In this document: piece after piece, positions 21,689 through 37,380 of the stretch
Layout: each line of letters begins with the position of its first letter
How positions within the stretch are numbered: the stretch's first letter is position 1
Assembly: GCF_014640075.1 (NCBI RefSeq)
Contig: NZ_BMGG01000001.1
Coordinates: forward strand, 620,001-684,000
Origin: Chelatococcus reniformis
GTDB lineage: Bacteria; Pseudomonadota; Alphaproteobacteria; Rhizobiales; Beijerinckiaceae
Reading direction: 5' to 3'
DNA: 64,000 nt
Notes under the pieces: generated by a model
What the model was told of the DNA's origin: nothing
Seen by the model: only the letters and a program-made list of their open reading frames with translations
The model's database searches: none
Translations under genes and position numbers: made by a program

Positions 21689-23611
21689 CTACCCGGCCTG
21701 GGCGGGCACGATCACCGCGGCGTCCGGCGGATCCGCGTGCAGCCGCTCCACCTGCCCGACGCGCCTGAGCAGCACCGCCCGCTGGTTGAGGTAGCCCTTG
21801 TCGGTGATCTCGCTGGCGTCGATCGACGGCGGCTCCAGGGTGAACATGAGGCGCGCCACCGCCGTCGAGCTGGCCGGCGCGACGCGGTTGTGGCGCGCGA
21901 GCGCGGCGGCGAGCGCGGCGCGCACCGCCGGATGCGCCACCACGGCCTCGGCCGGCGCGTCGGCAGCCAGGTCGGCGGCGAGCGCCCGGCAGGCGGCGAG
22001 GTTGGGGAAGGCGAGCAGGCCGATGGCGTCGCAGTCGTGGCCGGTGACGACGGCGTCGTCGAGGAACGGGGCGGCCGCGGCGAGCACGGCAATGCGCAGC
22101 ATGCCGACATTGACCCACGTGCCGGTGCTGAGCTTGAAGTTCTCGGCCACGCGCCCGTCGAACAGGATGCCCTTGGCCGGCACCTGCGGATCGGCGAAGC
22201 GCGCCGCATCGCCGGTCTTGAACCAGCCGTCAACAAAGGCCGCCGCGGTCAGGTCGGGGCGGCGCCAATAGCCCGGCGTGACGTTGGGGCCGCGCACCCG
22301 CATCTCCAGGCGCTCGCCGGACGGCGCCAGCATCAGCTCGCACCCGGGCAGCGGCAGCCCGATGATGCCGGCCCGGTCGGCCTCGAAATGGCCGCCGGTC
22401 ACACAGGGGGCCGTCTCTGTCATGCCCCAGCCCGAGAGCATCGGCACGACATGGCCGCGCGCCAACCGCGAACAGGCCTCGAGCCGTTGCCACAGGGGCT
22501 GCGGCAGGGCGGCGGCGGCATAGAAAATGATTTTCAGCCGGCTGAAGAAATGCCTGTTGAAGGCCGGGTCGGCTTCGAGCGCGTCGAGCAGGCAGGCATA
22601 GCCGCGCGGCACGTTGAAATAGGCGGTCGGTGCCACCGCCTTCAGATTGGCCACCGAGCGGGCGAACAGCGCCGGCACCGGCCGGCCCTCGTCGATGAAC
22701 AAGGTGCCGCCGTTGCGTAGCACCAGGTTGAAATTATAGTTGCCGCCGAAGGTATGATTCCAGGGCAGCCAGTCGACGATGACCGGCGGCTCCCGTTCCA
22801 GGAACGGCCAGATCTGGGCAGTGCTCTCCTGGTTGGAGCAGAGCATGCGCTGGGTGTTGATGACGCCCTTCGGCAGGTCGGTGGAGCCGGAGGTGAACAG
22901 GATCTTGGCGATCGTATCGGGCCCGACGGCGGCGTTCGCGCGGGCCACCGCCTCCGTCGGCGCCGTGGCGCAAAGGGCGGCGAATGGCGTCCCGGCGGGG
23001 CCGGCGGCCGGCCCGGCCGCCACGACGGTCTCGGCGCCGCCGAAGCTCACCGCCTCGAGCGCTGCGGCGTAGGCCCGGGGGTCGTCGACGAAGACGAGCT
23101 GGGGCGCCACGAACTCCGCGATGTAGCGGAGCTTGGCGAAATCGCGGCTGAGCCGCGCGTAGGCGGTCGAGACCGGCGCCACCGGGATGCCGACATAGGT
23201 GGCGGCGAGCATCATCACGGCATGGTCGATGCCGTTCTCGGCCAGGATCAGGATCGGCCGCTGCGGTGACAGCCCGCGGTCGAGGAGGGCCTGGGCCACG
23301 GCGCGGGTCCGCCGCTGCGCCTCGCCGTAGGTGAGGATGCGCCAGTCCTCGCCCGGCCGCGCCCCGGCGCGCTGGGCCAGGAACGGCCGGTCGGACGCCT
23401 CGTCCGCCCACCGGTCGAGCAGCCCGCCCAGGCTGCGCGGCCCTGCGTTGAGCGGCAGCGGCGAGCGCAGCACGAGGGCGCCGTCGGGCCGGCGCTCGAT
23501 GTCGACGCGCGCCGGCGCGAAATGGGCGGAGGGCCACGGGCTCTCCGGCGAGCCGGGAGGCACAGCCGGGCTGCTCAATGGAACCGACACGGCGGCGCCC
23601 TCGCTTTGCAT
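21689..23611 (-). CDS. AMP-forming acyl-CoA ligase, feruloyl-CoA-synthase-like
   Basis: A 640-residue ANL-family ligase that activates a carboxylic acid to its CoA thioester via an acyl-AMP. The P-loop [11 protein letters not shown] is at 239-249, GWGMTETAP is the A5-type motif, and FKTGD follows. The segment around [15 protein letters not shown] is characteristic of feruloyl-CoA synthases, as is the extra length. TGGAGGAAACAG precedes the ATG at 23611. It is divergent from the Liv-type importer genes and shares a control region with TGCA octamers. No enoyl-CoA hydratase/aldolase or vanillin dehydrogenase is adjacent, so the substrate may be another aryl acid channelled to the box pathway. 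Confidence 0.82.
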
Positions 23612-23670
23612 CTGTTTCCTCCAGGTAGCCCGCCAGGCGCGCCGATCGACCATTCGGCCTTTGCGGCGAA

Positions 23671-23739
23671 TGCATCCGCGGCTGTACGCACTATGCATTA
23701 TAATTCTTGCAATTCAAAAATTATACGCATTATGCTGCA
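23671..23739. promoter_or_regulatory. Divergent control region with TGCA motifs (candidate BoxR operator A)
   Basis: Four TGCA tetramers occur (23671, 23694, 23708, 23736). TATAATT (23699-23705) and AATTATA (23719-23725) form a perfect inverted repeat around TTGCAA. The octamer TGCATTAT is at 23694-23701, overlapping a TATAAT -10 for the minus-strand ligase gene. On the plus strand TTGCAA (23707-23712) and TATGCT (23731-23736) are spaced 18 apart. The octamer is shared with 33177-33184 and 36332-36339. BzdR of Azoarcus is known to bind TGCA repeats within palindromes; the link here is inference. Confidence 0.65.
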
Positions 23740-23792
23740 TGCCAAGGCGTGCGCGGCGGCAAGCTCGCGCGGACCAAGCCAGGGAGGATCGC

Positions 23793-25007
23793 ATGAAGGC
23801 CGAGGACGGCTGCCGGCTGCGCAGCACCAGGCGTGGGCTGTTGAAGGGCGCCGCGGCGTGGGGCGCGTTGGGCGTGGCGGGGCCGCTCGCCAAGCCGGCC
23901 CTGGCCCAGGCCGCTCCCCTGCGCGTCGGGCTGATGCTCCCCTACACCGGCACCTATGCCAAGCTCGGCCAGTTCTGCGACCAGGGCTTCCGCCTGTTCG
24001 TCGAGATGAACGGCGGCAAGCTCGGCGGCCGCGAGATCAGCTTCGTGCAGGTCGACGACGAGTCGAAGCCGGAGACGGCGACCGACAACATGAACAGGCT
24101 GGTCTCCCGCGACAAGGTCGACGTGGTGGTCGGCACCGTCCATTCCGGCGTCGCCATGGCCATGGTGAAGGTAGCGCGGGACACCAAGACCCTGCTGCTG
24201 ATCCCCAACGCCGGGGCCAACGATGCCACCGGCCCGCTGTGCGCGCCCAACATCTTCAGGACGTCGTTCTCCAACTGGCAGGTCAACTTCCCCATGGGGA
24301 AGGTGATCGCCGACGCAGGGCACAAGAAGGTGGTCACCATCACCTGGCGCTACACCGCCGGCCAGGAGATGATGGCCGCCTTCAAGGAAGGCTTCGCCCA
24401 AGCGGGCGGCACGGTGGTGGAAGAGCTGGCCCTGCCGTTCCCGGAAGTCGAGTTCCAGGCGCTGCTCACCCGCATCGCCTCCATCAAGCCGGACGCGGTG
24501 CACGCCTTCTTCGCCGGCGGCGGCGCAGTGAAGTTCGTGCGCGACTATGCAGCGGCCGGGCTCAAGGGGCAGATCCCGCTCTACGGGCCGGGGTTCCTGA
24601 CCGACGGCACCCTGAAGGCGCAGGGCGAAGCGGCCGAGGGCATCCGCACCACGCTCCACTATGCCGACGACCTCGACAATCCCGCCAACAAGACCTTCCT
24701 CGCCGCCTTCGCGAAGAAGACCAGCCAGGTCGGCGACATCTATGCGGTGCAGGGCTACGACGCGGCCGCCCTGCTGGCGGTCGGCCTCGGCGCCGTGGGC
24801 GGCGACTTCAGCCAGCGCGATGGCCTGGTCAAGGCCATGGGCGCGGCCCGGCTCGACAGCCCGCGCGGTCCGGTGACCTTCAACAAGGCGCACAACCCGA
24901 TCCAGAACATCTATCTGCGCGACGTCCGCAACGGCATCAACGCCTATGTGGCGGTCGCCCAGGCCAACGTCGACGATCCGGCCCGCGGCTGCCGCATCGC
25001 CACCTGA
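23793..25007 (+). CDS. Liv-type ABC substrate-binding protein, probable aromatic acid binder
   Basis: A 404-residue exported binding protein (Peripla_BP_6). The N-terminus has a twin-arginine-like signal, TRRGLLKG, followed by a hydrophobic core and PALAQA, so Tat or Sec export is possible. GLMLPYTGTYAKLGQ begins the mature fold. AGGGAGGATC lies before the ATG. It heads a five-gene importer operon (to 28483) inside the box island, which suggests benzoate or a related aromatic acid as ligand. Proteins of this class bind aromatic acids in other alphaproteobacteria. Confidence 0.85.
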   Translation: MKAEDGCRLRSTRRGLLKGAAAWGALGVAGPLAKPALAQAAPLRVGLMLPYTGTYAKLGQFCDQGFRLFVEMNGGKLGGREISFVQVDDESKPETATDNMNRLVSRDKVDVVVGTVHSGVAMAMVKVARDTKTLLLIPNAGANDATGPLCAPNIFRTSFSNWQVNFPMGKVIADAGHKKVVTITWRYTAGQEMMAAFKEGFAQAGGTVVEELALPFPEVEFQALLTRIASIKPDAVHAFFAGGGAVKFVRDYAAAGLKGQIPLYGPGFLTDGTLKAQGEAAEGIRTTLHYADDLDNPANKTFLAAFAKKTSQVGDIYAVQGYDAAALLAVGLGAVGGDFSQRDGLVKAMGAARLDSPRGPVTFNKAHNPIQNIYLRDVRNGINAYVAVAQANVDDPARGCRIAT

Positions 25008-25118
25008 GGTGGCGCGCGCCAGAGCGGCCCCTGTCGTCATCGGCCGGAGCGCGTCTTTGCGATGGGCGGTCCACCCCAGCGCGAAACGCCCCGCCCTCTC
25101 CTGCCCGGGCATGGTTCC

Positions 25119-25991
25119 ATGGACTTGCAGACCTTCGCCGTCCAATTGCTGAACGGCGTCCAGTACGGGCTGGTGCTCTTTCTGGTGGCCAGCGGACTCA
25201 CGCTGATCTTCGGCATCCTGGGCGTCATCAACCTGGCGCACGGCGCCTTCTACATGCTGGGCGCCTACCTCGCCTATTGGCTGACGGCGGCCACGGGCAG
25301 CTTCTGGCTGGCGCTGGCGGGCGGCGTCGCCATCGCCTTCTGTCTCGGCCTCGCGCTGGAGCAGCTGCTGGTCAGGCGGCTCTACGGCCGCGACCACCTC
25401 ACCCAGGTGCTGATGAGCTACGGGCTCATCCTGGTCATCGACGAAGCGCGCCAGATCCTGTTCGGCAAGGACGTGCATTCGGTGGCCGCGCCGGCGCTGC
25501 TCGCCGGCGGCATCCGGCTGACGGACCTCCAGACCTACCCCGTGTATCGCCTCGCCGTCTGCATCTTCTGCCTGCTGGTCGCGGTCGGCGTGTTCCTTCT
25601 CATCCACCGCACCCGCATCGGCATGATCGTGCGGGCGGGCGCCGAGAACCGCGAGATGACGCGGGCGCTCGGCATCCCCTTCGACACGGTGAACCGCACC
25701 GTCTTCGCGGCCGGCATCGCGCTCGCCGCGCTCGCCGGCCTCGTGGTGGCGCCGATCTCCACCGTCTTCCCCGGCATGGGCGACGGCATGCTGATCCTGT
25801 CGTTCGTCGTGGTCGTGCTCGGCGGCATCGGCTCGGTCGCCGGCGCGGCCATCGGTGCGCTCCTCGTCGGGCTGACCGACACCTTCGGCAAGGTGTTCTT
25901 CCCCAGCCTGTCGAGCATGCTGATCTATGTGGTCATGGCGCTTGTCCTGATCTGGCGGCCGACCGGCATCCTCGGCCGGCGAGAGGCGTGA
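25119..25991 (+). CDS. LivH-type ABC transporter permease
   Basis: A 290-residue inner-membrane permease with about eight hydrophobic helices. GLTLIFGILGVINLAHGAFYMLGAY (about 27-51) is the LivH signature, and GAENREMTRALGI (about 190-202) is the cytoplasmic EAA-like loop. It pairs with the LivM-type protein to form the channel. The ribosome site is weak. Its TGA shares one base with the next ATG (TGATG), so translation is coupled. Confidence 0.9.
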   Translation: MDLQTFAVQLLNGVQYGLVLFLVASGLTLIFGILGVINLAHGAFYMLGAYLAYWLTAATGSFWLALAGGVAIAFCLGLALEQLLVRRLYGRDHLTQVLMSYGLILVIDEARQILFGKDVHSVAAPALLAGGIRLTDLQTYPVYRLAVCIFCLLVAVGVFLLIHRTRIGMIVRAGAENREMTRALGIPFDTVNRTVFAAGIALAALAGLVVAPISTVFPGMGDGMLILSFVVVVLGGIGSVAGAAIGALLVGLTDTFGKVFFPSLSSMLIYVVMALVLIWRPTGILGRREA

Positions 25992-27028
25992 TGACCGCCC
26001 CCGCCGACAGGCACTCCTGGCTCGTCCTCGCGCTGCTGCTGGTGCTCGCCGCGCTGCCGCTGCTGGCGCCCGGCTATTACGTGCAGTTCGCCACCAAGAT
26101 CCTGCTGATGGGCATCGCCGCCATGGCCCTCAACCTGGTCGTCGGCTTCGGCGGCCTGGTCAGCCTCTGCCACGGCGCCTTCTTCGGTCTCGCCGGCTAT
26201 GTGCTGGCGCTGACCGCCCCGCGCTACGACCCGGCGGCCCTGTGGTGGAGCCTGCCGTTCGCCGTCGCCGCCGTCGCCCTGGTCGCGCTCGTCATCGGCG
26301 CGCTGTCCCTGCGCACGCGCGGCCTCTACTTCATCATGGTGACGCTCGCCTTCGGCGAGATGCTGTTCTACCTGTTCCAGGACGCCGGCTTCGCCGGCGG
26401 CTCGGACGGCACCTTCATCCACTACAAGCCCGAGCTCGCCGTGGCGGGGCTGACGCTGGTCGACCTGGAGGCGCCGGCCCAGTTCTTCTGGCTGGTGCTG
26501 GCGCTGGCGGCAGGCGTGATCCTCCTGCTCCGCCATCTCCTCGCGGCGCCGTTCGGGCGGGCGCTGCGGGCCGCCCGCGACAACGAGCGGCGTGCCCGCG
26601 CGCTCGGCTTTCCGATCTACCGCCTCCAGCTCGGCGCCTTCGTGCTGTCGGGCGCGCTCACGGCGCTGGCCGGCTACTTCGCCGCCGCGCAATTCGGCTT
26701 CGTGGCGCCGCAGATGCTGGGATGGCACCTGTCGGCGATCCTCCTGGTGATGGTCGTCCTCGGCGGGCTGCGCACGGTCGCCGGCCCGCTGCTCGGCGCG
26801 GCGGCGCTGATGGGGCTGGAAGAGGTGCTGAAGCTCGCGACCGAGCATTGGAAGCTGGTGGAGGGGCTGGCGATCATCGGCATCGTCCTGGTGTCCCCGG
26901 CCGGGCTGCGCCGGCTCGCCACGGCCGCCTTCGGCGCATCCGCCAGCGGGGGTGAGCACCTCGCCGCGCCGCCGCGCAGCACGGCCGAGGACACGACCGC
27001 CACGGACAGGTCCATCCGCCATGCCTGA
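25991..27028 (+). CDS. LivM-type ABC transporter permease
   Basis: A 345-residue permease with about nine hydrophobic segments. MALNLVVGFGGLVSLCHGAFFGLAGY (in parts, about 45-70) is the LivM-family core. RAARDNERRARALGF is the coupling loop. The last 30 residues are a hydrophilic Ala/Ser/Thr tail. The gene starts on the last base of the LivH stop codon and overlaps the ATPase gene downstream by eight bases. That indicates a tightly packed operon. Confidence 0.9.
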   Translation: MTAPADRHSWLVLALLLVLAALPLLAPGYYVQFATKILLMGIAAMALNLVVGFGGLVSLCHGAFFGLAGYVLALTAPRYDPAALWWSLPFAVAAVALVALVIGALSLRTRGLYFIMVTLAFGEMLFYLFQDAGFAGGSDGTFIHYKPELAVAGLTLVDLEAPAQFFWLVLALAAGVILLLRHLLAAPFGRALRAARDNERRARALGFPIYRLQLGAFVLSGALTALAGYFAAAQFGFVAPQMLGWHLSAILLVMVVLGGLRTVAGPLLGAAALMGLEEVLKLATEHWKLVEGLAIIGIVLVSPAGLRRLATAAFGASASGGEHLAAPPRSTAEDTTATDRSIRHA

Positions 27029-27776
27029 CATCGCACTGCGGGCCGAGAACCTGGAGCGCCGCTTCGGTGGCCTGCGCGCCGTGGCCGGTGTCAGCCTCGA
27101 CGTGCGGCGCGGCGAGATCCACGCGGTCATCGGCCCCAACGGAGCCGGCAAATCGACGCTGATCAACCTGCTGTCCGGCGATCTGGCCGTCACCGCCGGC
27201 GACATCCTGCTCGACGGCCGCTCGCTGCGGCGCCTCGGCCCGGATCGGCGTGGGCGGCTGGGCATCGGGCGCGCCTACCAGAAGACGACCATCTTCGGCG
27301 CTTCGAGCGCCTTCGAGAACGCCCGGCTGGCCGTCCAGGCCCGCGCCGGCCGACCGCTTGCCCTGTGGCCGCGGCGCCGGGCCGAGCAGGCGACCGACGG
27401 GCTGGCCGAGGCAGCGCTCGCCGCCGCGGGCCTTGCGGCGCGAGGCGGCATCCGCGCCGACCGGCTGAGCCACGGCGAGCAGCGCCAGCTCGAGATCGCC
27501 ATGGTGGTTGCCGGCGGCGCCCACGTGCTGCTGCTGGACGAGCCGCTCGCCGGCATGGGCACCGAGGAGGCGCGCACCATCACCGCGCTGATCCGCTCGC
27601 TCAAGGCCGGGCGCGCCGTGCTGCTGGTGGAGCACGACATGGACGCGGTGTTCGCGCTGGCCGACCGGCTGACGGTCATGGCCGACGGGCGGGTGATCGC
27701 CAGCGGCTCGCCGCAGGAGGTGCGGCGCGATCAGCACGTGCGCACCGCCTATCTCGGCCACGGAGATCCGGGATGA
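27021..27776 (+). CDS. LivG-type ABC transporter ATPase
   Basis: A 251-residue ATPase. Walker A is GPNGAGKST (38-46), the signature is the variant LSHGEQRQLE, and Walker B is LLLDEPLAGM. The variant LSHGEQ (instead of LSGGQ) is normal in LivG proteins. It hydrolyses ATP to drive the LivHM-type channel. It overlaps both neighbours (8 and 4 bp). ATG at 27021 begins right at the conserved N-terminus. Confidence 0.9.
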   Translation: MPDIALRAENLERRFGGLRAVAGVSLDVRRGEIHAVIGPNGAGKSTLINLLSGDLAVTAGDILLDGRSLRRLGPDRRGRLGIGRAYQKTTIFGASSAFENARLAVQARAGRPLALWPRRRAEQATDGLAEAALAAAGLAARGGIRADRLSHGEQRQLEIAMVVAGGAHVLLLDEPLAGMGTEEARTITALIRSLKAGRAVLLVEHDMDAVFALADRLTVMADGRVIASGSPQEVRRDQHVRTAYLGHGDPG

Positions 27777-28483
27777 CGCCGCTGCTGGCCGTCGCGGGGC
27801 TCGAGGCCTTCTACGGCGCGAGCCAGGTCCTGAAAGGCATCGAGCTGGAGGTCGGGCGCGGCGAGGCCGTCGGCCTCGTCGGCCGCAACGGCATGGGCAA
27901 GAGCACCCTGCTGCGCTCGCTCATGGGGCTGGTGCCGGACCGGCGCGGGTCGATCCGCCTCGACGGCCGCGACATCGCCCGCGCGCCGCCCGAGGCAATC
28001 GCCCGCAGCGGCATCGCCTACGTCCCGGAGGGGCGCGGCATCTTCGGCTCGCTCACGGTGATCGAGAACCTGGTGATGGCGGCGCGGCCGGGCTGCGGCG
28101 GGCGCCGCACCTGGACGCTGGAGCGCGTCCTGGCCCTGTTCCCCCGCCTCGCCGAGCGCCGCCGCCACGGCGGCCAGCAATTGTCCGGCGGCGAGCAGCA
28201 GATGCTGACCATCGGCCGGGCGCTGATGACCAACCCGGAGCTGATCCTCGTGGACGAAGCGACGGAAGGGCTGGCGCCGCTGGTGGCGCAGGAGATTTGG
28301 CGCACCCTCGACGTGATCCGCGGCGAGGGCGCAGCGGTGATCGTCGTCGACAAGGACATGCGCGCCATCGCGCGCCTCGCCGACCGCATCGTCGTGCTCG
28401 CCAAGGGCGAGATCGTGCTCGCCGGCCGCCCGGCAGCGCTTGCGGCGACACCCGGCCTGCTGGAACGCTATGTCGGCATTTGA
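27773..28483 (+). CDS. LivF-type ABC transporter ATPase
   Basis: A 236-residue ATPase. Walker A is GRNGMGKST (37-45), the signature LSGGEQQML, and Walker B LILVDEATEGL. YVPEGRGIFGSLTV is the Q-loop region typical of LivF. It overlaps the LivG stop by ATGA. It is the last gene of the importer operon and converges on boxA. A repeat hairpin at 28541-28583 separates the two. Confidence 0.9.
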   Translation: MTPLLAVAGLEAFYGASQVLKGIELEVGRGEAVGLVGRNGMGKSTLLRSLMGLVPDRRGSIRLDGRDIARAPPEAIARSGIAYVPEGRGIFGSLTVIENLVMAARPGCGGRRTWTLERVLALFPRLAERRRHGGQQLSGGEQQMLTIGRALMTNPELILVDEATEGLAPLVAQEIWRTLDVIRGEGAAVIVVDKDMRAIARLADRIVVLAKGEIVLAGRPAALAATPGLLERYVGI

Positions 28484-28540
28484 GGCGCCCCGTCATGGCC
28501 GGACTCGACGACGCCGGTATGGCGCCGGCAGAGCGGTTGC

Positions 28541-28583
28541 GCACCCCCGCCCCGCGTGCGGGGAGAGGGAGGGGAGAGGGGCT
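28541..28583. terminator. Hairpin between convergent livF-type and boxA genes
   Basis: CCCCGC-GT-GCGGGG (28550-28563) is a perfect 6-bp stem with a 2-base loop, followed by a purine-rich GAGAGGGAGGGGAGAGGGG tract. The tract resembles the left arm of the repeat at 1981-2020. It has no T run, so bidirectional termination is only a suggestion from its position. Confidence 0.45.
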
Positions 28584-28605
28584 TGCCGCGCGGCTTTACC
28601 GCCAG

Positions 28606-29799
28606 CTAATACGTCTCCACGTGGTAGCGGCCGCCGCCGCGCATGTCGGCCTTGAGCACGGCCCAGTCGAGGGCGGCGCCCCGGCAGACGTCGGCGAACG
28701 CCTCGTCGACACCGCTCTCCATGGCCTTGAGGCCGCAGAGATAGACGTGGGTGTGCGGATCGCGCAGCAGGCGGGCGATCCGCTCGGCATCGGCGCGGAT
28801 CTTGTCCTGCACATAGGTGCGCGGCTCGCCGGGAATGCGCGAGAAGCAGAGGTGGCGGGCGAGCAGGCTCTCCGGCACCTTCTGCAGCGGGCCGAAATAG
28901 GGCAGCTCCTGCGGGCGCCGGGCGCCGAAGAACAGCAGCAGCTCGCCGGCGGCCTGCGGCATGGCGCGCCGCCGGCGCTCGGTGAAGCCGCGGAACGGCG
29001 CCGAGCCTGTGCCGGTGCAGATCATGACGATGTGGGCCGCTGGGTCGTTCGGCATCAGGAAGGTGGCGCCGAACGGGCCCGTCACCTCGACGCCGGCGCC
29101 CTTGGGCAGGTCGCAGAGAAAGTTGGAGCACACGCCGCCCGGCTCGCGCTTCACCGTCAGTGCCAGGTTGTTGGCATTCGGCTTCTCGCCGTCGCGCGGG
29201 CTGGCGATCGAGTAGAGGCGGATGGCGTGCGGCTCGCCCGCGCCCGTCGCACCGGGGGGCACGATGCCGATGCTCTGCCCCTCCAGCACCGCGAAGGGCA
29301 GCTGGCCGAGATCGAGGATGATGTGGCGCACGTCGGTCTCGCCGTCGGGAGCCGTGAGACGATAGTTGCCGACCACCGTGGCGCGCGCCGGCTTGCCTCT
29401 GTTGTAGAGGTTGACCGTGGGCTTGCTGGCCGACGAGGGCGCCACCGGCTTGCCGCCGAGGCCCCGGCGGGCCTCCTCCAGGAGGGCGCTGACCTCGTCC
29501 TCCAGCGCCTCGATAGCCCCGTCGGCGCGCTCGCCCAGCTCCTCCTGAGCCGGCAGTTCGCCCCAGGAGAACTGCTCGTCCAGCGTATAGGCCTGCTCCA
29601 CCACACGCCAGTTGTCGATGGCGCCGGTGGGACAGGGGGCGATGCAGTCCATGCAATAGTTACAGATCTCGGCGTTGACGACGTAGTTGTTGTCGTCGTG
29701 AGTCACGGCATCGATCGGGCACGTCTCCTCGCAGGTATTGCACCGGATGCAGATCTCCGGATCGATGACGTGCTGCTTGATCAGCGTGGCAGTGGCCAT
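28606..29799 (-). CDS. boxA: Benzoyl-CoA 2,3-epoxidase, reductase subunit BoxA
   Basis: A 397-residue iron-sulfur flavoprotein that passes electrons from NADPH to BoxB. Two [4Fe-4S] ferredoxin motifs are at Cys17/20/23/27 and Cys46/49/52/56. A linker of about 100 residues is followed by an FNR-type FAD/NADPH module (about 130-397; RLYSIAS for FAD, CTGTGSAPFRG for NADPH, and the C-terminal YHVETY). This architecture is diagnostic for BoxA. The ATG at 29799 begins just before the first cluster; longer readings add unrelated sequence. It is the last gene of the minus-strand box operon, 97 bp after boxB. Confidence 0.95.
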   Translation of the reverse strand: MATATLIKQHVIDPEICIRCNTCEETCPIDAVTHDDNNYVVNAEICNYCMDCIAPCPTGAIDNWRVVEQAYTLDEQFSWGELPAQEELGERADGAIEALEDEVSALLEEARRGLGGKPVAPSSASKPTVNLYNRGKPARATVVGNYRLTAPDGETDVRHIILDLGQLPFAVLEGQSIGIVPPGATGAGEPHAIRLYSIASPRDGEKPNANNLALTVKREPGGVCSNFLCDLPKGAGVEVTGPFGATFLMPNDPAAHIVMICTGTGSAPFRGFTERRRRAMPQAAGELLLFFGARRPQELPYFGPLQKVPESLLARHLCFSRIPGEPRTYVQDKIRADAERIARLLRDPHTHVYLCGLKAMESGVDEAFADVCRGAALDWAVLKADMRGGGRYHVETY

Positions 29800-29896
29800 G
29801 AACGCGGTTCCCGAGGCTTGCGGAGCACCTGCGGAATGGCGCGCAGCGCGCGGGAAGCACGCCCAAGTCGTCCGTCCCGGCGCGCCGTTCGCCCTC

Positions 29897-31345
29897 TCAC
29901 GCAGCAATCTTCACGTATTCGAAATCACCCGGCTTGTTGTCGATGCCGACCTTGGGCGCGGCGATCCAGCTGGCGAACTGGCCGGTCTCCGCCACCGGCT
30001 GCATCAGGGCGGCGATGAAGTCGCCGTCCACGGTCGACGGCAGGTACTGGTCATGCGTGTTCTGCCAGGTGGCGTCGTCGACGAGCACGCCCTTGGGTGT
30101 CGCGTTGATGTTCTTGAATTCGCCGATCTGGCGATGGAACGCCACGTGCGGCAGCTCGAGGCGGAAGCGCACGCCGGTCTTCTCGATAATCTTATTCCAG
30201 CGCTCCACGCCCTTGGCGCAATCGACGACATAGTCGTCGCGCAGGCGCATGTTGAGCGCCGTCAGCGCCGGTTCCTGCACCAGCTGGAGCCGGCCGTCGA
30301 TCATCTTCATGACCGCATAGGTGTCGCGGGTCAGCCGGTGATCGTCGTCGATCTTGGTCTCCTGGAAGCGCCCCTTCATCCCGGCATTGTAGAAATTCGC
30401 GGCGTTGGTGGAGACCTCCGAGCCGAACAGGTCGAGCGACAGCGAGAAGTGCAGGTTCATCTTCTTCTGGATCGTCGGCAGATCGATGACGCCCAGCGCC
30501 CGGATCTTCGCCGTCTCGGACGGATCCTCGATGCCGGCGGCCAGCATCGCCTCGCAGGTGCGCTGGATGGTGCGGCCGACGCCGGTCTCGCCGACGAACA
30601 TGTGGTGCGCCTCCTCCGTCAGCATGAAGCGGCAGGTGCGCGACAGCGGGTCGAAGCCGGACTGGGCCAGGCTCTCCAGCTGCATCTTGCCGTCCCGGTC
30701 GGTGAAGAAGGTGAACATGAAGAACGACAGCCAGTCGGGCGTCGCCTCGTTGAAGGCGCCGAGCATGCGCGGCGCATCCTCGTCGCCGGAACGGCGGCGC
30801 AGCAGGTCGTCGGCCTCCTCGCGACCGTCGCGGCCGAAGTATTTCTGCAGGAGATAGACCATGGCCCACAGATGCCGTCCCTCCTCGACGTTCACCTGGA
30901 AGAGGTTGCGCATGTCATAGAGCGACGGCGCCGTCTTGCCGAGGTGGCGCTGCTGCTCGACCGAAGCCGGCTCGGTGTCGCCCTGGATGACGATCAGCCG
31001 GCGCAGCATGGCGCGGTACTCGCCCGGCACCTCCTGCCAGGCCGGCTCGCCGAGGTGCTCGCCGAAATTGACCTTGCGCCCCTCCTCCTGCGGCGCCAGC
31101 AGCACGCCCCAGCGGTATTCGGGCATGCGCACATAGTCGAACTTGGCCCAGCCCTTGGGATCGACCGAAACGGCGGTGCGCAGATAGACGAGGGATTCCT
31201 GAAAGCCCTCCGGGCCCATGTCGTTCCACCAGTCGAGATAGCCGGGATGCCAGCCCTCCAGGGCCTTCAGCACCTGCCGGTCGGAGGCGAGATCGACGTT
31301 GTTGGGGATCTTTGTGGTGTAGTCGACATTCATGAGGTCGATCAT
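29897..31345 (-). CDS. boxB: Benzoyl-CoA 2,3-epoxidase, oxygenase subunit BoxB
   Basis: A 482-residue class-I diiron epoxidase that converts benzoyl-CoA plus O2 to 2,3-epoxybenzoyl-CoA. Expected iron ligands are visible: Glu125 (DTEPA), the E-x-x-H of VEEGRH (154-158) and of TEEAHH (243-248). Asp216/Asp218 (FFTDRDGK) lie between. Length and motifs match BoxB. GGGAGGT lies seven to eight bases before the ATG at 31345, so this start is favoured over the internal Met at codon 5. It follows boxC by 111 bp. Confidence 0.96.
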   Translation of the reverse strand: MIDLMNVDYTTKIPNNVDLASDRQVLKALEGWHPGYLDWWNDMGPEGFQESLVYLRTAVSVDPKGWAKFDYVRMPEYRWGVLLAPQEEGRKVNFGEHLGEPAWQEVPGEYRAMLRRLIVIQGDTEPASVEQQRHLGKTAPSLYDMRNLFQVNVEEGRHLWAMVYLLQKYFGRDGREEADDLLRRRSGDEDAPRMLGAFNEATPDWLSFFMFTFFTDRDGKMQLESLAQSGFDPLSRTCRFMLTEEAHHMFVGETGVGRTIQRTCEAMLAAGIEDPSETAKIRALGVIDLPTIQKKMNLHFSLSLDLFGSEVSTNAANFYNAGMKGRFQETKIDDDHRLTRDTYAVMKMIDGRLQLVQEPALTALNMRLRDDYVVDCAKGVERWNKIIEKTGVRFRLELPHVAFHRQIGEFKNINATPKGVLVDDATWQNTHDQYLPSTVDGDFIAALMQPVAETGQFASWIAAPKVGIDNKPGDFEYVKIAA

Positions 31346-31456
31346 GGCTTAAACCTCCCTTGTTCTAGTAGTATGACCATTCATCTTCGTGTGTGACGAC
31401 ACGGGCGCAGCGCGCAATCCACGGCGCGGGGCCCGGCTTGCCCTGGGGCGCTTGCG

Positions 31457-33145
31457 TCACACCCGCTGCATGTCGAAGGCGGCCTTCTGGCCGGTGCCGT
31501 AGCGTTTGAGGGCGCCCTCCTCGCCGACGGCGTTCGGCCGTTGGAAGATCCAGTTCTGCCAGGCCGTGAGCCGGGCAAAGATCTTCGATTCCATGGTCTC
31601 GGGCCCGACGAAGCGCAGATTGGCCTCCATGCCCGTCAGGCTGTCCGGCGAAAAGCTGGCGCGCTCCTCCAGGAAGACGCGCACCTCGTCGCCCCAGTCG
31701 ATGTCATCGAGCGCGAAGGTCACCAGGCCGAGGTCTTCCGCCGTCGCTCCGTCCAGGGTCTCGCCGACGCGCTGGCGCGCCCGGTCCACGTCGCCGGGAT
31801 CGGCCAGGAACCGCGCCTCGAGCCGGGTCAGCCCCTGGCTCATGGGATAGGCGTCGAAGTTCATCCGGTTGAGCGCCAGCGCCGGCGGCGGCCGGTTGTC
31901 ACCGCGCCTCTCGCCGATCAGCATGTAGGAGCGGTCGGCGGCGAAGACGAGCTCGGCCAACGTTCCGGCGAAGCACGAGCCCGGCTCGACCATGGCGACG
32001 ATGGTGCGCGAGGTGACGTCGAGGCGCTTCAGCACCCGCTTCCAGTAGTGGCGGATCTCGTTGGCGAGCCAATGGCCCTGGCTGGCTTCGAGAAGGTCGT
32101 CGTAGGCGAGCACCGTGGCGATGTCGCCCAGGCTCTTGAACAGCACGACGGCGATGCCGGTCTCGTTGAGGCGCAGGTGGAGAATGGCGTCGTCGAGTTC
32201 GCGCGCCACCTGCAGCAGCCAGAAGCCCGCACCCTGCCCGACCATGGCCTCCGCGTCCGCCGGCGGCCCCGCCTCCGGCGCACGCACGGTGACGGTTGCG
32301 ATGCGCTCCGCGCGCTGGATGTCGACGCTGACGAAGCCATAGCCGACCCCATCCGCCTCGAAGCGGCGGTCGAGCGGCGTCAGCGCGACGCCGGCGCCGC
32401 TAGCCGCGCGCTGCGAGGCGTCGGCGAACTCGCGGGCGCGCTGCGCCACCCGGGCTTCCAGCCGGGAGTTCGGCACCGTCTCGTCGACGAGGCGCCACTG
32501 CACCGCCCGGCGTCCCTTGACGCCCTCCTCGGTGGTGCAGAAATAATCCGCATGGTCGCGCCGCACCTTGCGCTTGTCGACCACCCGGGTCAGCCCGCCG
32601 GTGCCCGGCAGCACGGCGAGCAGCGGCACCTCCGGCAGGGATACGGCCGAGGAGCCGTCGTCCGCCAGGATGATGTGATCGGTGGCGAGCGCCAGTTCGT
32701 AGCCGCCGCCGGCGGCGGTGCCGGCGATGACGCTGATGTAGCGTTGGCCCGACCAGGCGCTTGCATCCTCGATGCCGTTGCGCGTCTCGTTGGTGAACTT
32801 GCAGAAATTCACCTTGTGAGCGTGCGAGGAGCCGCCCAGCATGCGGATGTTGGCGCCGGCGCAGAACACCCGGTTCTTGCCCGAGCGGATCACCACCGTC
32901 TTGACCTCGGGATGTTCGAAGCGCAGCCGCTGCACCGCATCGGCAAGCTCGATGTCGACACCCAGGTCATAGGAATTGAGCTTGAGCTGGTAGCCCTCGA
33001 ACAGGCCGCCGTTCTCGTCGACGTCCATGGTCAGCGTGGCGACCTCGCCGTCGGCAGCCAGCTTCCAGTGCCGGTAGCGGCTCGGGTCGGTCTCGAAGTC
33101 CACCCACTGCTTGCCGTCGGCGAGCTGGGGTCCATCTCCTGCCAT
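31457..33145 (-). CDS. boxC: 2,3-Epoxybenzoyl-CoA dihydrolase BoxC
   Basis: A 562-residue crotonase-superfamily enzyme, about twice the usual length because of two enoyl-CoA-hydratase-like regions, as in known BoxC. It opens the ring hydrolytically, giving 3,4-dehydroadipyl-CoA semialdehyde and formate. FCAGANIRMLGG (about 117-128) and GTAAGGGYELALATDH form the CoA-binding/oxyanion loops of the first domain. The start is ATG at 33145 with GGAGGAC upstream. A longer GTG-initiated frame to 33322 would run through the operator and the neighbouring gene, so I reject it. The promoter region at 33168-33239 carries TGCA palindromes. Confidence 0.95.
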   Translation of the reverse strand: MAGDGPQLADGKQWVDFETDPSRYRHWKLAADGEVATLTMDVDENGGLFEGYQLKLNSYDLGVDIELADAVQRLRFEHPEVKTVVIRSGKNRVFCAGANIRMLGGSSHAHKVNFCKFTNETRNGIEDASAWSGQRYISVIAGTAAGGGYELALATDHIILADDGSSAVSLPEVPLLAVLPGTGGLTRVVDKRKVRRDHADYFCTTEEGVKGRRAVQWRLVDETVPNSRLEARVAQRAREFADASQRAASGAGVALTPLDRRFEADGVGYGFVSVDIQRAERIATVTVRAPEAGPPADAEAMVGQGAGFWLLQVARELDDAILHLRLNETGIAVVLFKSLGDIATVLAYDDLLEASQGHWLANEIRHYWKRVLKRLDVTSRTIVAMVEPGSCFAGTLAELVFAADRSYMLIGERRGDNRPPPALALNRMNFDAYPMSQGLTRLEARFLADPGDVDRARQRVGETLDGATAEDLGLVTFALDDIDWGDEVRVFLEERASFSPDSLTGMEANLRFVGPETMESKIFARLTAWQNWIFQRPNAVGEEGALKRYGTGQKAAFDMQRV

Positions 33146-33167
33146 GGCCGGCGTCCTCCGTCTGCTT

Positions 33168-33239
33168 ATATGCAACATAATGCATATTCCATGACGAGGG
33201 TCCACAGCAGAACCATCGCGACTATGCATTTTCATGCAT
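33168..33239. promoter_or_regulatory. TGCA palindromes upstream of boxC (candidate BoxR operator B)
   Basis: ATATGCA (33168-33174) and TGCATAT (33181-33187) form a perfect 7-bp inverted repeat with a 6-base spacer. This contains the octamer ATAATGCA at 33177-33184. ATGCAT repeats at 33224-33229 and 33234-33239. A minus-strand -10-like TATAAG lies against the inner arm (33165-33170), with no good -35. Thus boxCBA may have its own regulated promoter in addition to read-through from bclA. The second pair falls in the last codons of the DUF309 gene. Confidence 0.6.
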
Positions 33240-33771
33240 GTTTCTGGAATGCATCGAGGTGCACCAGTGGCGCGTCCGCGGCCAGCGCGCAGCCGGCGCC
33301 GCACGCGGCCAGCGCCCGGCACAGGCTGGCCGCGTCGAGCCTGTCCGCATAGCTCGCGGGGGCCGCCCCCGGCTCCCTCAGGCGGAGCTCGTCGAGCAGC
33401 GCCATGGCCTCGGCGACGAGGCGGCGGACCGCTCGCGGCCGGCCCAGGCGCCGCTTCAGCCCCCCATTGGCGATCTGGATGGCGGCGCGGAGCGCCAGCC
33501 GGTCACGGCCGTTCATGGGCGCGGCCTTCCAGACGGCCTCCCACACCTCGTGGGCCTCCCAGAAGAAGCCAGCGTCGTGCAGGCTCAGCCCGTAGCGGAG
33601 GCCGGCGTCGTCGGCCGGCACGAAGGCCGCGAAGCGTGCCGGCAAGGCACGCTTGGCGCGCTCCAGCGGCTCCCGGTCGGGCCCCGCCGTGCGGCCGGGA
33701 AGGTGCGCCCAGCGCGGCAGGGGCCAGGCGTCCGGCCGCTCGCCGGGCTCAGGCGGCGCGGGACAACACAC
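33232..33771 (-). CDS. DUF309 family protein in the box operon
   Basis: A 179-residue, probably all-helical soluble protein. The core, about residues 60-110, has HDAGFFWEAHEVWEAVWK, the DUF309 signature with clustered His, Glu and Trp. The function of the family is unknown. It starts with GTG at 33771 and overlaps the upstream hydrolase gene by 23 bases. That places it firmly in the bclA-to-boxA transcription unit. The HE-type motif could bind a metal, but that is speculation. N-terminal 40 residues are Pro/Arg-rich; a shorter start is possible. Confidence 0.72.
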   Translation of the reverse strand: MCCPAPPEPGERPDAWPLPRWAHLPGRTAGPDREPLERAKRALPARFAAFVPADDAGLRYGLSLHDAGFFWEAHEVWEAVWKAAPMNGRDRLALRAAIQIANGGLKRRLGRPRAVRRLVAEAMALLDELRLREPGAAPASYADRLDAASLCRALAACGAGCALAADAPLVHLDAFQKHA

Positions 33772-34573
33772 CTTCGCCGTGGGTCTTGAGGAGGCGGTCG
33801 GCGAAGGCGACCATGGTGGCGACGGTCTCGTCCGACGCCTCGCGGTGGGGGGCGTGGCCGACGGCGGGCAGCAGGCTCACCTCCACCGGGCAGTAGCACT
33901 CCGCCTCGGCCACCTCGATCTGCCGCCGGCTGCCGTAGGGGTCCTCGCTACCCTGGATGATCTGGATGGGCACGCGGATATAGGCCAGCGCCTCCGAGAT
34001 GTCCCAGGCGCGGAAGCCCGGATGCAGCCAGGCGTCGTTCCAGCCCCGGAAGGCAAGGTCCACATCCTTGTGCCAGCGCGCGAGCCTGCCGCGCAGGCCG
34101 CCGCCCTCGTAGGCCTCCCGCGCCGCCTCGATCGATGCCGCCGTCACGCCTTCCACGAAAAAATGCGGGGCGATCAGCGACAGGCCGCGGATGCGATGGT
34201 CCTGGACGCTGCCGGCATAGATGGCAGCGATGGACGCCCCGTCCGAGTGGCCGACCAGCAGGCCGCGCCGGAAGCCGATGGCGTCGAGGACCCGCGGCAG
34301 CACCTGCAGCGCCTCGTCGTGCATGTAGGTCAGCGGCCGGGGCAGCGCGGCCGGGCTCGACGCCCCATAGCCCTCCCGCGAATAGACGAAGACCCCGGCG
34401 CCCGTGGCCGCGGCCAGCCGGTCGGGAAAACTGTTCCACAGGCCGACGCAGCCGAGCCCTTCGTGCAGCAGCACGAGCGTCGGCGCCTCCTTCGGAGGCG
34501 GGCCGATCATGCGGTATTCGAGCCGGGCTCGGCCGATCTCCAGGATTCCCGATGATTGAAGCTTGGCCACCAC
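33749..34573 (-). CDS. Alpha/beta hydrolase in the box operon
   Basis: A 274-residue alpha/beta-fold hydrolase. Nucleophile Ser110 lies in GHSDGAS, the acid is probably the Asp in GSEDPYG, and the base His is in VGHAPHRE. GTG start at 34573 with GAGGAG upstream. It begins 21 bp after the bclA stop and overlaps the DUF309 gene. Hydrolases of this fold appear in other box clusters and may serve as a lactonase or thioesterase clearing dead-end products. That role is inferred, not shown. Confidence 0.82.
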   Translation of the reverse strand: MVAKLQSSGILEIGRARLEYRMIGPPPKEAPTLVLLHEGLGCVGLWNSFPDRLAAATGAGVFVYSREGYGASSPAALPRPLTYMHDEALQVLPRVLDAIGFRRGLLVGHSDGASIAAIYAGSVQDHRIRGLSLIAPHFFVEGVTAASIEAAREAYEGGGLRGRLARWHKDVDLAFRGWNDAWLHPGFRAWDISEALAYIRVPIQIIQGSEDPYGSRRQIEVAEAECYCPVEVSLLPAVGHAPHREASDETVATMVAFADRLLKTHGEGVLSRAA

Positions 34574-34594
34574 GGTCTCCTCGGCTGCCCTTGA

Positions 34595-36151
34595 TCAGTT
34601 GCTCTTGCCGTCCGGCTCGCGCAGCTTGAAACGCTGGATCTTGCCCGTCGCCGTCTTGGGCAGGCTGTCGACCACCTCGATCCAGCGCGGATACTTCCAC
34701 GGCCCGATCGCCTGCTTGACGTGCTCCTTGAGCGCCCCGTTCAGGTCGGCGCAGTGCGGCTGGTCCTTGAGGACGATATAGGCCTTCGGCTTGGTCAGCC
34801 CGTCGGCGTCCAGCGCCGGAACCACGGCCGCCTCGAGGATCTCCGGATGGCTGATCAGGGCGCTTTCGACCTCGAAAGGCGACACCCAGATGCCGGACAC
34901 CTTGAACATGTCGTCGGCGCGCCCGCAGTAGGTGAAGCGACCCTCCGCGTCACGGATGTATTTGTCGCCGGTCCTCGTCCAGCAGCCCTCGAAGGTATCG
35001 CGGCTCTTCTCCCGCTGGTTCCAGTAGCCCTCGGCCGCCGAGGGACCGTGCACCAGGAGTTCGCCGACCTCGCCATCCGCCACGGGCGCGCCGCCCTCGC
35101 CCACGAGGCGCACCTCGTAGCCTGGCACCGGCCGGCCGGCGGCGCCGTATTTGATGTCGCCGGGCGCGTTCGACAGGAAGATGTGCAGCATCTCGGTCGA
35201 GCCGACGCCGTCGAGGATGTCGACGCCGAAGCGCTCGCGCCACGCCAGCCCCACGGGCTCGGGCAGCGCCTCCCCGGCCGAAGTGCAGATGCGGACGCTG
35301 GGCAGGCGGCGCTCCGCCTTGAGGCCCGGGTCGGCCAGCATGGCGGCGAACAGCGTCGGCACGCCGTAGAAGATCGACGGCTCGAAGCGCTGCATCAGGG
35401 CGAAGATGGCGGCGGGCGTCGGCCGCTCGGGATTGAGGATGGTGGTGGCGCCGACGGCCATCGGGAAGGTCAGCGAATTGCCCAGCCCATAGGCGAAGAA
35501 CAGCTTGGCGGCCGACAGGCAGACGTCGTCCTCCCGGATGCCCAGGACCTGGCGCGCATAGGTGTCGGCGGTCGCCATCAGGCTGGCGTGGACGTGCCGC
35601 GTGCCCTTGGGCATGCCCGTGGAGCCCGACGAATAGAGCCAGAAGGCGGGCTCGTCCGCATGGGTGTCGGCCGTCGCGCACGCGTCCGGCGCGCCGGCCA
35701 AAGCGGCGGCGAAATCGTGGTGGTGCGTCGCGCCGCCGGCGCCGACGACGATCACGTCGCGCAACTCGGGCAGGCTCGGGAGAACAGCCTCGAGCGCCGG
35801 CAGCAGCGCCGCCGACACGAACAGCACCTTGGCGCGCGAGTCGGCCAGGACATAGGCGTATTGCTCGGGTGTGAGCAGCGTATTGAGCGGCACGGGCACG
35901 ACGCCGGCGCGCAGTGCCCCCAGGAACACGATCGGGAACTCGACCGTATCCAGCATCACCAGCGCCGCCCGCTCCTCGCGGCGCACGCCCAGCTGCGCCA
36001 GGAGGTTCGCCAGCCGCCGGCTGTCGCCCTGGAGCGCACCGTAGCTCAGCTGCCGCGCGGGGTCGGTGAAGGCGATCTTGCCGGCGCGGCCGAGCGTGAT
36101 GTTGCGGTCGAGCAGCTCGGTCACCGCGTTGTAGCGGGCCGGGGTGCTCAT
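34595..36151 (-). CDS. bclA: Benzoate-CoA ligase
   Basis: A 518-residue AMP-forming ligase: benzoate + ATP + CoA gives benzoyl-CoA. The P-loop YSSGSTGMPKG is at 173-183, and FFAYGLGNSLTFP and LDGVGSTEMLHIFLSN are strongly BCL-like. The C-terminal catalytic Lys lies in TATGKIQRFKLR. GGAG sits eight bases before ATG at 36151; an in-frame start further up would cross the promoter. It is the first gene of the minus-strand operon bclA-hydrolase-DUF309-boxC-boxB-boxA and is divergent from boxR. Confidence 0.93.
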   Translation of the reverse strand: MSTPARYNAVTELLDRNITLGRAGKIAFTDPARQLSYGALQGDSRRLANLLAQLGVRREERAALVMLDTVEFPIVFLGALRAGVVPVPLNTLLTPEQYAYVLADSRAKVLFVSAALLPALEAVLPSLPELRDVIVVGAGGATHHHDFAAALAGAPDACATADTHADEPAFWLYSSGSTGMPKGTRHVHASLMATADTYARQVLGIREDDVCLSAAKLFFAYGLGNSLTFPMAVGATTILNPERPTPAAIFALMQRFEPSIFYGVPTLFAAMLADPGLKAERRLPSVRICTSAGEALPEPVGLAWRERFGVDILDGVGSTEMLHIFLSNAPGDIKYGAAGRPVPGYEVRLVGEGGAPVADGEVGELLVHGPSAAEGYWNQREKSRDTFEGCWTRTGDKYIRDAEGRFTYCGRADDMFKVSGIWVSPFEVESALISHPEILEAAVVPALDADGLTKPKAYIVLKDQPHCADLNGALKEHVKQAIGPWKYPRWIEVVDSLPKTATGKIQRFKLREPDGKSN

Positions 36152-36331
36152 GGCGCGCTCCGGCAGGTGTGGACGGGGTGGCCCGTGGCTGGGAAGACCA
36201 GCCGTTCGCCGGGCCGCGGTGCACGTCCAAAATAGTGGAGCGCGTTCCGCCGGGATGTCCGCATCCAACCGGGCAATGCCCTGGGCCGCGACCTCGGCTG
36301 GCTCATCCAATCCTCCCGGCATTCTTGAATT

Positions 36332-36388
36332 ATAATGCATATAAAGGGCATTGGGCGATGTTGTGTCAATCCGGTTTTGCATTATGTT
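36332..36388. promoter_or_regulatory. Divergent bclA/boxR promoter with paired octamers (candidate BoxR operator C)
   Basis: The minus-strand bclA promoter has TTGACA (complement of 36364-36369), an 18-base spacer and TTTATA (complement of 36340-36345). ATAATGCA (36332-36339) abuts the -10 and TGCATTAT (36378-36385) lies just behind the -35; these are perfect 8-bp inverted arms. For boxR, TTGTGT (36361-36366) and TATGTT (36383-36388) are spaced 16 apart, the latter overlapping the second octamer. This fits autoregulated repression of both genes. Confidence 0.7.
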
Positions 36389-36414: not shown

Positions 36415-37380
36415 ATGCTGGACAAGACTCGCGATTTTGCCGACGGAGTGCCTCGGGCAGGATGCGGAGACCGGATCGGCATGGCGGAGACGGAGGAGTC
36501 GGAGGAGCGATTTCTCGCCGAGCTCGGGCAGCGCGTGCGCAACATGCGGGCCGTGCACGGCATGTCCCGCAAGACGCTCTCGAAGGTGTCCGGGCTGTCG
36601 GAGCGCTATATTGCCCAGCTCGAGAGCGGCCACGGCAATGTCTCGATCATTCTCCTGCGCCGCGTCGCCATGGCCATCGGCACCAAGCTCCAGGATCTCC
36701 TGCCGAGCGCCGACGTGTCGCCCGACTGGCCGCTCATCCGCGATCGCCTGCGGGAAGCGTCGTCCGAGCAGCTCGACCGCATCAAGAGCATCCTCTCGGA
36801 CGACGGGCAGGGGGCGGCGCCCGCGCCGCTGCGGGTGGCGCTGATCGGGCTGCGCGGCGCGGGCAAGTCGACGCTCGGGCGCATGGCCGCCGAACGGCTC
36901 GGGTGGCCCTTCGTCGAGCTCAATCGAGAGATCGAGCGCGAGAACGGGCTCTCGGTGCCAGAGATCTTCGCCCTGTACGGCCAGGAGGGATACCGGCGCA
37001 TGGAGCAGGACGCCCTGCGCAAGCTCACCCTGCGCACCGGCCCGATGGTGCTCGCCACCGGCGGCGGCATCGTGGCCGAGCCGCTCACCTTCGACCTCGT
37101 CCTGTCGTCGTTCTTCACCATCTGGCTCAAGGCGAGGCCGGACGAGCACATGGGGCGGGTGCGCCAGCAGGGCGACCTCCGGCCGATGGGCAACGATCGT
37201 TTCGCCATGGACGAGCTGCGGGCGATCCTGGCCAGCCGCGAGCCGCTCTACGCCCGGGCTCGGGCGGTGCTCGACACCTCGGGCGCCAAGCTCGAGGCGA
37301 GCGCGGAAGAGCTTACGGACCTCATCAACGCCCAGGTCGAGCGCAGCGTCGCGCCCCGCCGCACCGCGGCGCGACGCTGA
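36415..37380 (+). CDS. boxR: BoxR/BzdR-type benzoyl-CoA-responsive repressor
   Basis: A 321-residue fusion. An XRE-type HTH (about 38-95; MSRKTLSKVSGLSERYIAQLESG) is joined by a linker to a shikimate-kinase-like domain (about 139-310) with P-loop GLRGAGKST at 145-153. This architecture is specific to the BzdR/BoxR family, in which benzoyl-CoA binds the kinase-like domain and releases DNA. The ATG at 36415 has AGGAGA nine bases before it. An ATG at 36481 is a possible shorter start. It is divergent from bclA, with octamer sites between them. Confidence 0.94.
   Translation: MLDKTRDFADGVPRAGCGDRIGMAETEESEERFLAELGQRVRNMRAVHGMSRKTLSKVSGLSERYIAQLESGHGNVSIILLRRVAMAIGTKLQDLLPSADVSPDWPLIRDRLREASSEQLDRIKSILSDDGQGAAPAPLRVALIGLRGAGKSTLGRMAAERLGWPFVELNREIERENGLSVPEIFALYGQEGYRRMEQDALRKLTLRTGPMVLATGGGIVAEPLTFDLVLSSFFTIWLKARPDEHMGRVRQQGDLRPMGNDRFAMDELRAILASREPLYARARAVLDTSGAKLEASAEELTDLINAQVERSVAPRRTAARR

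Follow-up and report, generated by a model that had tools for sequence, protein, structure and literature searches.

The 64,000-nucleotide stretch of Chelatococcus reniformis DNA analysed here (contig NZ_BMGG01000001.1, positions 620,001 to 684,000, forward strand; hereafter the window, in whose coordinates positions are given) carries an island of box genes together with the benzoate-coenzyme A (CoA) ligase gene bclA, a second aryl-CoA ligase gene, a Liv-type importer and the regulator gene boxR. This locus raises the question of whether uptake, activation and ring-opening of benzoate answer to one regulator. A preliminary description had proposed that an octamer, ATAATGCA/TGCATTAT, joins three control regions (ligase/importer, boxCBA and bclA/boxR) into a single BoxR regulon. 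Our analysis supports this proposal, since the same operator was found in each region and the encoded regulator is BoxR (PRK08154). We read the four octamers as parts of six 16-bp predicted BoxR operators, two in each region, and give this reading a probability of roughly 0.87. Because an operator pair lies in each of the three control regions, the genes for benzoate uptake, activation and ring-opening are very probably induced as a unit.

Predicted operators in the three control regions

The octamer was present at all four positions claimed for it (23694-23701, 33177-33184, 36332-36339, and 36378-36385) and at no other place in the window; these four matches compare with a mean of 0.25 in shuffled sequences, and none of 100 shuffles reached four. 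The genome-wide count that had been suggested was carried out and gave 22 copies in 6.81 Mb on 39 contigs (10 forward, 12 reverse), and the octamer read backward, used as a control, occurred 24 times. The octamer is rare and not over-represented overall, and it is clustered only in the box island. The chance that at least 4 of 22 copies fall within some 12.7-kb stretch is about 5e-5 after correction for 536 windows. Among 840 composition-matched octamers, just two were present in all three control regions, namely the studied octamer and its overlapping register AATGCATA; the 10-mer ATAATGCATA was also common to the three regions.

The octamers had been described as lying within or beside palindromes, and each was found to form the inner part of a 16-bp palindrome, TGCA-N6-TGCA, one half of which is altered in several cases. 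Two further palindromes, at 23725-23740 and 33224-33239, do not contain the exact octamer. Across the genome, only the four island copies overlap a palindrome scoring at least 14 (14.0 to 32.2 here). By the preliminary description, an octamer common in unrelated promoters would have refuted the proposal; this was not what we found, as none of the remaining 18 copies in the genome exceeds a palindrome score of 9.5. The octamer as the full operator was ruled out, as 18 of the 22 copies lie outside any palindrome of at least 14. Its proposed role as the shared site was upheld in that it is part of the known BoxR/BzdR site, and was corrected in that it is a fragment of the operator only. The published site consists of TGCA repeats with the main form ATGCACTATAGTGCAT (PMC6449761), and the earlier statement that BzdR of Azoarcus binds TGCA repeats in palindromes agrees with the accounts in PMC6678401 and PMC6449761. 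According to the latter, BoxR sites are almost always multiple and often lie 3 to 5 turns apart.

Next, the window was searched with a matrix that had learned from relatives, namely from 147 of 153 sites in boxC promoters of 66 clusters, with the window sequence excluded. The top six places of the matrix were exactly the six predicted operators, and the seventh, at 13495, scored 9.8. In the ligase/importer region, A1 (23693-23708, ATGCATTATAATTCTT; score 21.4, rank 4) holds the first octamer, and A2 (23725-23740, ACGCATTATGCTGCAT; 19.0, rank 5) lies 32 bp from it. In the boxCBA region, B1 (33170-33185, ATGCAACATAATGCAT; 32.2, rank 1) holds the second octamer, and B2 (33224-33239, ATGCATTTTCATGCAT; 27.0, rank 3), 54 bp away, overlaps the stop of the DUF309 gene. 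In the bclA/boxR region, C1 (36325-36340, TTGAATTATAATGCAT; 29.5, rank 2) and C2 (36377-36392, TTGCATTATGTTTCAG; 14.0, rank 6) hold the third and fourth octamers and are separated by 52 bp. The best score in 40 simulated windows (first-order Markov) averaged 8.3 with a maximum of 18.6, and five of the six operators score above every simulated window.

We also scored the whole genome with a sequence-only profile of 60 relatives' sites (profile R1; 150 of 152 first-look candidates were scored genome-wide). It gave seven matches at five distinct places at E ≤ 10, and four of the five places were in the island: B1, the best place of the whole genome (E 0.04), B2 (0.12), C1 (0.19), and A1 (5.0). 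A2 and C2 had E-values of 0.21 and 0.94 in the window. A degenerate pattern of lower stringency gave 22 places in the genome, 4 of them in the island, and its backward control gave 10. As the E-values of individual sites are modest (0.04 to 5), it is their clustering, pairing and conservation that carry the case.

A promoter of the form TTGACA-N18-TTTATA had been reported between the two octamers at bclA/boxR. It was seen in the sequence as a candidate bclA promoter on the minus strand (36340-36369; TTGACA 36364-36369, TTTATA 36340-36345); C1 coincides with the start point expected for bclA, and C2 lies immediately upstream of the -35 element. A consensus promoter scanner listed 0 promoters in the bclA/boxR region (shuffles, 0.7); TTTATA fails its fixed-letter rule.

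Under the proposed mechanism, BoxR dimers would occupy each TGCA-N6-TGCA palindrome when no inducer is present, and the two dimers of each region, about 3 or 5 helical turns apart, would cover or clamp the promoter; at bclA, C1 would lie at the start point and C2 would sit just upstream of the -35 element. Imported benzoate would be activated by BclA to benzoyl-CoA, which would bind the shikimate-kinase-like domain of BoxR and release the repressor, so that the importer, the ligases and the box enzymes would rise together with boxR itself. The kinase-like domain of BoxR is the part to which the inducer binds. The analysis itself shows the sites, how specific they are and that they recur in relatives; repression, benzoyl-CoA as the inducer, and cooperativity are what we infer from the BzdR and BoxR literature: repression relieved by benzoyl-CoA is described for BzdR of Azoarcus (PMC6678401), from which the inducer is assigned to the island BoxR by analogy, and repression is described for BoxR (PMC6449761). 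The analysis extends four octamers to an operator map that can be tested, and it ties a benzoate-type importer to the proposed benzoyl-CoA switch.

Conservation of the operators and proposed control of the importer and second ligase

Of 297 genomes of the order searched for BoxR, 241 gave matches. At least 60 of the rows listed, the own genome being counted among them, span the protein in both its halves, and the matches listed after them were kinase-only. Stretches were sampled around 40 of the 59 other full-length BoxR rows and around the best 80 of 585 named loci, from which records of the window's own genome were possibly omitted. The resulting 120 loci form 100 clusters, with many Bradyrhizobium and other Hyphomicrobiales and a few Beta- and Gammaproteobacteria. 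An operator was called when the matrix score was at least 14 within -300 to +20 of the gene start; the starts were extrapolated from tblastn and call for caution.

An operator was found upstream of boxC in 68 of 70 clusters (these are the training genes), of bclA in 51 of 69, of boxR in 68 of 99, and of the importer binding-protein gene in 8 of 12. No operator was found in the same islands upstream of boxB (0/71), the hydrolase gene (0/66), or the DUF309 gene (0/29). When similar promoters were dropped, operators were still present at boxC (61/63), bclA (25/42), and the importer (7/11). The exact form ATGCA-N6-TGCAT occurred in 38 of 70 boxC promoters, compared with 0.1 when these regions were dinucleotide-shuffled; with up to one mismatch, it occurred in 5 of 12 importer promoters (0.1 in shuffles), 17 of 99 boxR promoters (1.6), and 1 of 6 ligase promoters (0.1). 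In non-redundant boxC promoters, the commonest spacings between neighbouring operators were 10 bp (20 cases), 40-41 bp (10), and 50-52 bp (24), and other spacings were rarer, including three cases at 31 bp. These values and the window spacings of 32, 54, and 52 bp would suit dimers bound along roughly the same side of the helix. Strict 10.3-bp periodicity was rejected, as the fit favours a period near 10.8 bp, and boxC promoters from related genomes dominate it.

Several results weigh against the reading of six BoxR operators. The score of C2 falls within the chance range given by the simulated maximum, and single sites are weak genome-wide: the best E-value is the 0.04 of B1, A1 has 5.0, and A2 and C2 are unlisted at E ≤ 10. 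The regions with zero counts are an easy control, because they often lie within operons and are coding and GC-rich. Four of the 12 importer clusters have no operator, and an operator upstream of the ligase orthologues was found in one of six clusters. By the simple count with up to one mismatch, bclA promoters are weakly enriched (7/69 versus 2.2 in dinucleotide shuffles), and bclA operators are therefore mostly degenerate. Phasing in the held-out promoters alone is not significant (13 spacings, p ~0.1). Finally, a putative XRE-type regulator gene elsewhere in the genome has a similar palindrome beside it, so regulators other than BoxR may share the motif.

The inclusion of the importer in the regulon, as the preliminary description had suggested, is borne out by A1/A2 in the window and by the operators at 8 of 12 importer genes of relatives, and control of the importer by BoxR is well supported as a prediction. 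In locus L081 and in Tardiphaga locus L154, an operator pair with the same 32-bp spacing lies upstream of the orthologous importer, and the operator-pair block is identical to that of the window at 38 (L081) and 36 (L154) of 58 bases; L081 is apparently the same record as Tardiphaga L155. The predicted model of the importer binding protein (mean predicted local distance difference test score 82, eight-sequence alignment) had as its top Foldseek match PDB 4evq at 52% identity, the title of which names Rhodopseudomonas palustris RPA0668 with a bound 4-hydroxybenzo- ligand. RPA0668 binds benzoic acid (PMC3223731). In genome G253 (Bradyrhizobium-like genus g41), the second distinct place of the profile (L218:1504-1519) lies upstream of another putative Liv-type permease gene, read from its translation, about 20 kb from the boxC site.

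The second ligase had been called feruloyl-CoA-synthase-like, a label of the preliminary description that is replaced here by a PRK12582-type match. The findings on its proposed place in the regulon are mixed: the divergent region with A1/A2 is common to ligase and importer, and the ligase orthologues of relatives mostly lack an operator of their own. From its position in this region, BoxR control of the ligase appears likely, and it is the weakest link of the proposed regulon. With somewhat less than an even chance, the importer and the box/bcl promoters are the sole BoxR targets, A1/A2 serving the importer while the ligase is expressed independently. A1/A2 indeed resembles the pair upstream of the importer genes in L081 and L154, where the ligase is not divergent, and the one-in-six count points in the same direction; ligase orthologues in L088, L091, L164, and L170 had no nearby site, and those in L138 and L187 start outside the fetched stretch. 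However, 82 bp separate A1 from the ligase start used, and a repressor bound there would probably influence transcription both ways. In an Afipia bin (L114), moreover, an operator pair (26.0 and 16.1) belongs to the ligase itself, whose gene stands ahead of the importer gene in the same orientation. In L081 and L154 the ligase is found past boxB on the strand of the box genes, and so downstream of the boxC operators, presumably as a member of that operon.

The protein bound at the sites and BoxR without box genes

The fifth place of the profile, at C3:544299 (L205:6300-6315), is a strong palindrome, ATGCACCATATTGCAT, just upstream of the putative small XRE-type regulator gene mentioned above, with a putative SulP-like permease gene beside it (names read from translations). 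It is perhaps the operator of the XRE-type regulator itself. The island sites could in principle be bound by such a different TGCA-recognising regulator, with BoxR a mere neighbour, and the fact that, outside the island, the profile gave no place but ATGCACCATATTGCAT at E ≤ 10 speaks for this. We nevertheless consider it improbable, as the operators accompany box promoters in relatives (with boxC as the training genes) and binding of TGCA repeats by BoxR and BzdR is reported as experimental (PMC6449761, PMC6678401); the lack of sites at loci with BoxR and no box genes, given below, fits sites tied to box genes and does not by itself name the binder. Even less probable is that the shared octamer is merely AT-rich promoter sequence (TATAAT, then GCA) in a GC-rich genome: the control regions are AT-richer (GC 0.51 to 0.60 versus 0.70) and TATAAT falls inside A1 and C1, but just 2 of the 840 matched octamers occur in all three regions, and the exact palindrome far exceeds its shuffles in relatives' boxC promoters.

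Further BoxR targets elsewhere in the genome were rejected on the basis of the three other exact ATGCA-N6-TGCAT places (inside the start of a TetR-like gene, just upstream of the XRE-type/SulP-like pair, and inside a large unidentified open reading frame; gene names read from translations), none of which looks aromatic.

BoxR was also found apart from box genes, at 18 Methylobacterium-type loci (13 Methylobacterium/Methylorubrum and 5 of genus g4, about 16 clusters, not all independent). Genus g4 resembles Methylobacterium and belongs to the same family as the host, which by likeness falls in the Hyphomicrobiales. The BoxR proteins of these loci are 59 to 65% identical to that of the window, and the recognition helix SERYIAQLE is kept in the three loci inspected (L146, L153, and L163). 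In the fetched stretches, some of them short, neither BoxB nor BoxC was found at 50% identity, and a BoxR-type site of at least 14 was found within the fetched stretch at none of the 18 loci. BoxB was absent from all five whole genomes of genus g4. Among all 32 loci without BoxB and BoxC, 10 have a site near boxR; several of these 10 lie on short contigs or have other box-type genes. A new Methylobacterium regulon was rejected, as profile places were inconsistent across five genomes (three of the five had any at E ≤ 5); genes were read at all these places but L223, which was scored only. The only good-looking place in the five genomes, L223 again scored only, was in G174 (L211:1503-1551), where a pair of BoxR-like palindromes, 33 bp from each other, precedes a putative OxlT-like transporter gene. 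At L146, the genes neighbouring boxR look like those of a serine acetyltransferase and of a lytic transglycosylase. The orphan BoxR of Methylobacterium-type genomes poses a directly testable question. We offer only tentatively the broader idea that alphaproteobacterial BoxR may use a modular operator grammar, with dimer pairs a few turns apart, which recruits diverse Liv-type importers and a second aryl-CoA ligase into the response to benzoyl-CoA, and that an orphan BoxR with an unchanged recognition helix, lacking the box pathway and nearby box operators, may be kept for another job in Methylobacterium-type genomes.

Comparison with known systems and genes of the island

The BoxR regulon of Betaproteobacteria (Suvorova and Gelfand 2019, PMC6449761) resembles the island in regulator architecture, in the motif, in multiple sites 3-5 turns apart, in boxR being divergent from bclA, and in the inclusion of importer genes in most of the bacteria studied there. 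Unlike that regulon as described, the island is alphaproteobacterial, boxCBA lies on the bclA strand and not beside boxR, and there are three separate control regions, an added PRK12582-type ligase, and, in the whole genome, no BoxD-family gene over the cut-off. For Betaproteobacteria, regulons that join importers to BoxR have been published (PMC6449761); the alphaproteobacterial case adds to them and shows that the site known from Betaproteobacteria is also present in Alphaproteobacteria. PMC10803450 reports six ligases of Alphaproteobacteria from aerobic box contexts. A full-text search gave no title on alphaproteobacterial BoxR, which is weak evidence of newness as few subscription journals were covered. 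The PN promoter of Azoarcus is alike in having several TGCA-N6-TGCA operators bound by BzdR, and differs in the anaerobic bzd pathway, in three operator regions at one promoter, and in the extra regulators AcpR and AccR (PMC6678401). RPA0668/HbaE of R. palustris, the closest solved binding protein, differs from the island importer in lying between the bad and hba operons of anaerobic degradation (PMC3223731).

The boxR gene (36415-37380, plus strand; alternative start ~36481) encodes an N-terminal XRE helix-turn-helix and a C-terminal shikimate-kinase-like domain (PF01381 and PF01202 over cut-off; PRK08154 428 bits, cut-off 204). It adjoins the catabolic genes, all on the minus strand and assigned with NCBIfam: bclA (34595-36151; TIGR02262 849 bits, cut-off 375, with the match given from 36157, two codons upstream of the bclA start), boxC (31457-33145; TIGR03222 957 bits, cut-off 712), boxB (29897-31345; TIGR03225 908 bits, cut-off 499), and boxA (28606-29799; TIGR03224 572 bits, cut-off 459). 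Family PRK11903, which we take to be the BoxD semialdehyde dehydrogenase, had no member over the cut-off in the whole genome (best 123 bits versus 444), although boxABC is present, and a BoxD gene under BoxR elsewhere in the genome was ruled out on this ground. No BoxD-family gene over the cut-off was found in 8 of 16 BoxR-bearing relatives tested either, including the five of family f36, to which the Bradyrhizobium-like genus belongs.

The PRK12582-type acyl/aryl-CoA ligase gene occupies 21689-23611 on the minus strand (NCBIfam NF009232 799 bits, cut-off 777; Pfam AMP-binding), with alternative upstream starts at 23653 and 23698. On the plus strand, the RPA0668/HbaE-like substrate-binding protein gene (23793-25007; phmmer 4evq 425 bits) is followed by importer permease and ATPase genes at 25062-28483, namely LivH (25062-25991), LivM (25991-27028), LivG (~27021-27776), and LivF (27773-28483); LivH and LivG have Pfam matches, and LivM and LivF were assigned from open reading frames and tblastn against relatives. 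The alpha/beta hydrolase gene (33749-34573, minus strand), whose hydrolase-family matches are all below cut-off, is a candidate for the box-pathway lactonase by analogy with the COG596/COG2267 gene of published box clusters (PMC6449761). Between bclA/hydrolase and boxC lies the DUF309 gene (33232-33771, minus strand; Pfam PF03745), a homologue of which was found in the islands of 29 relative clusters.

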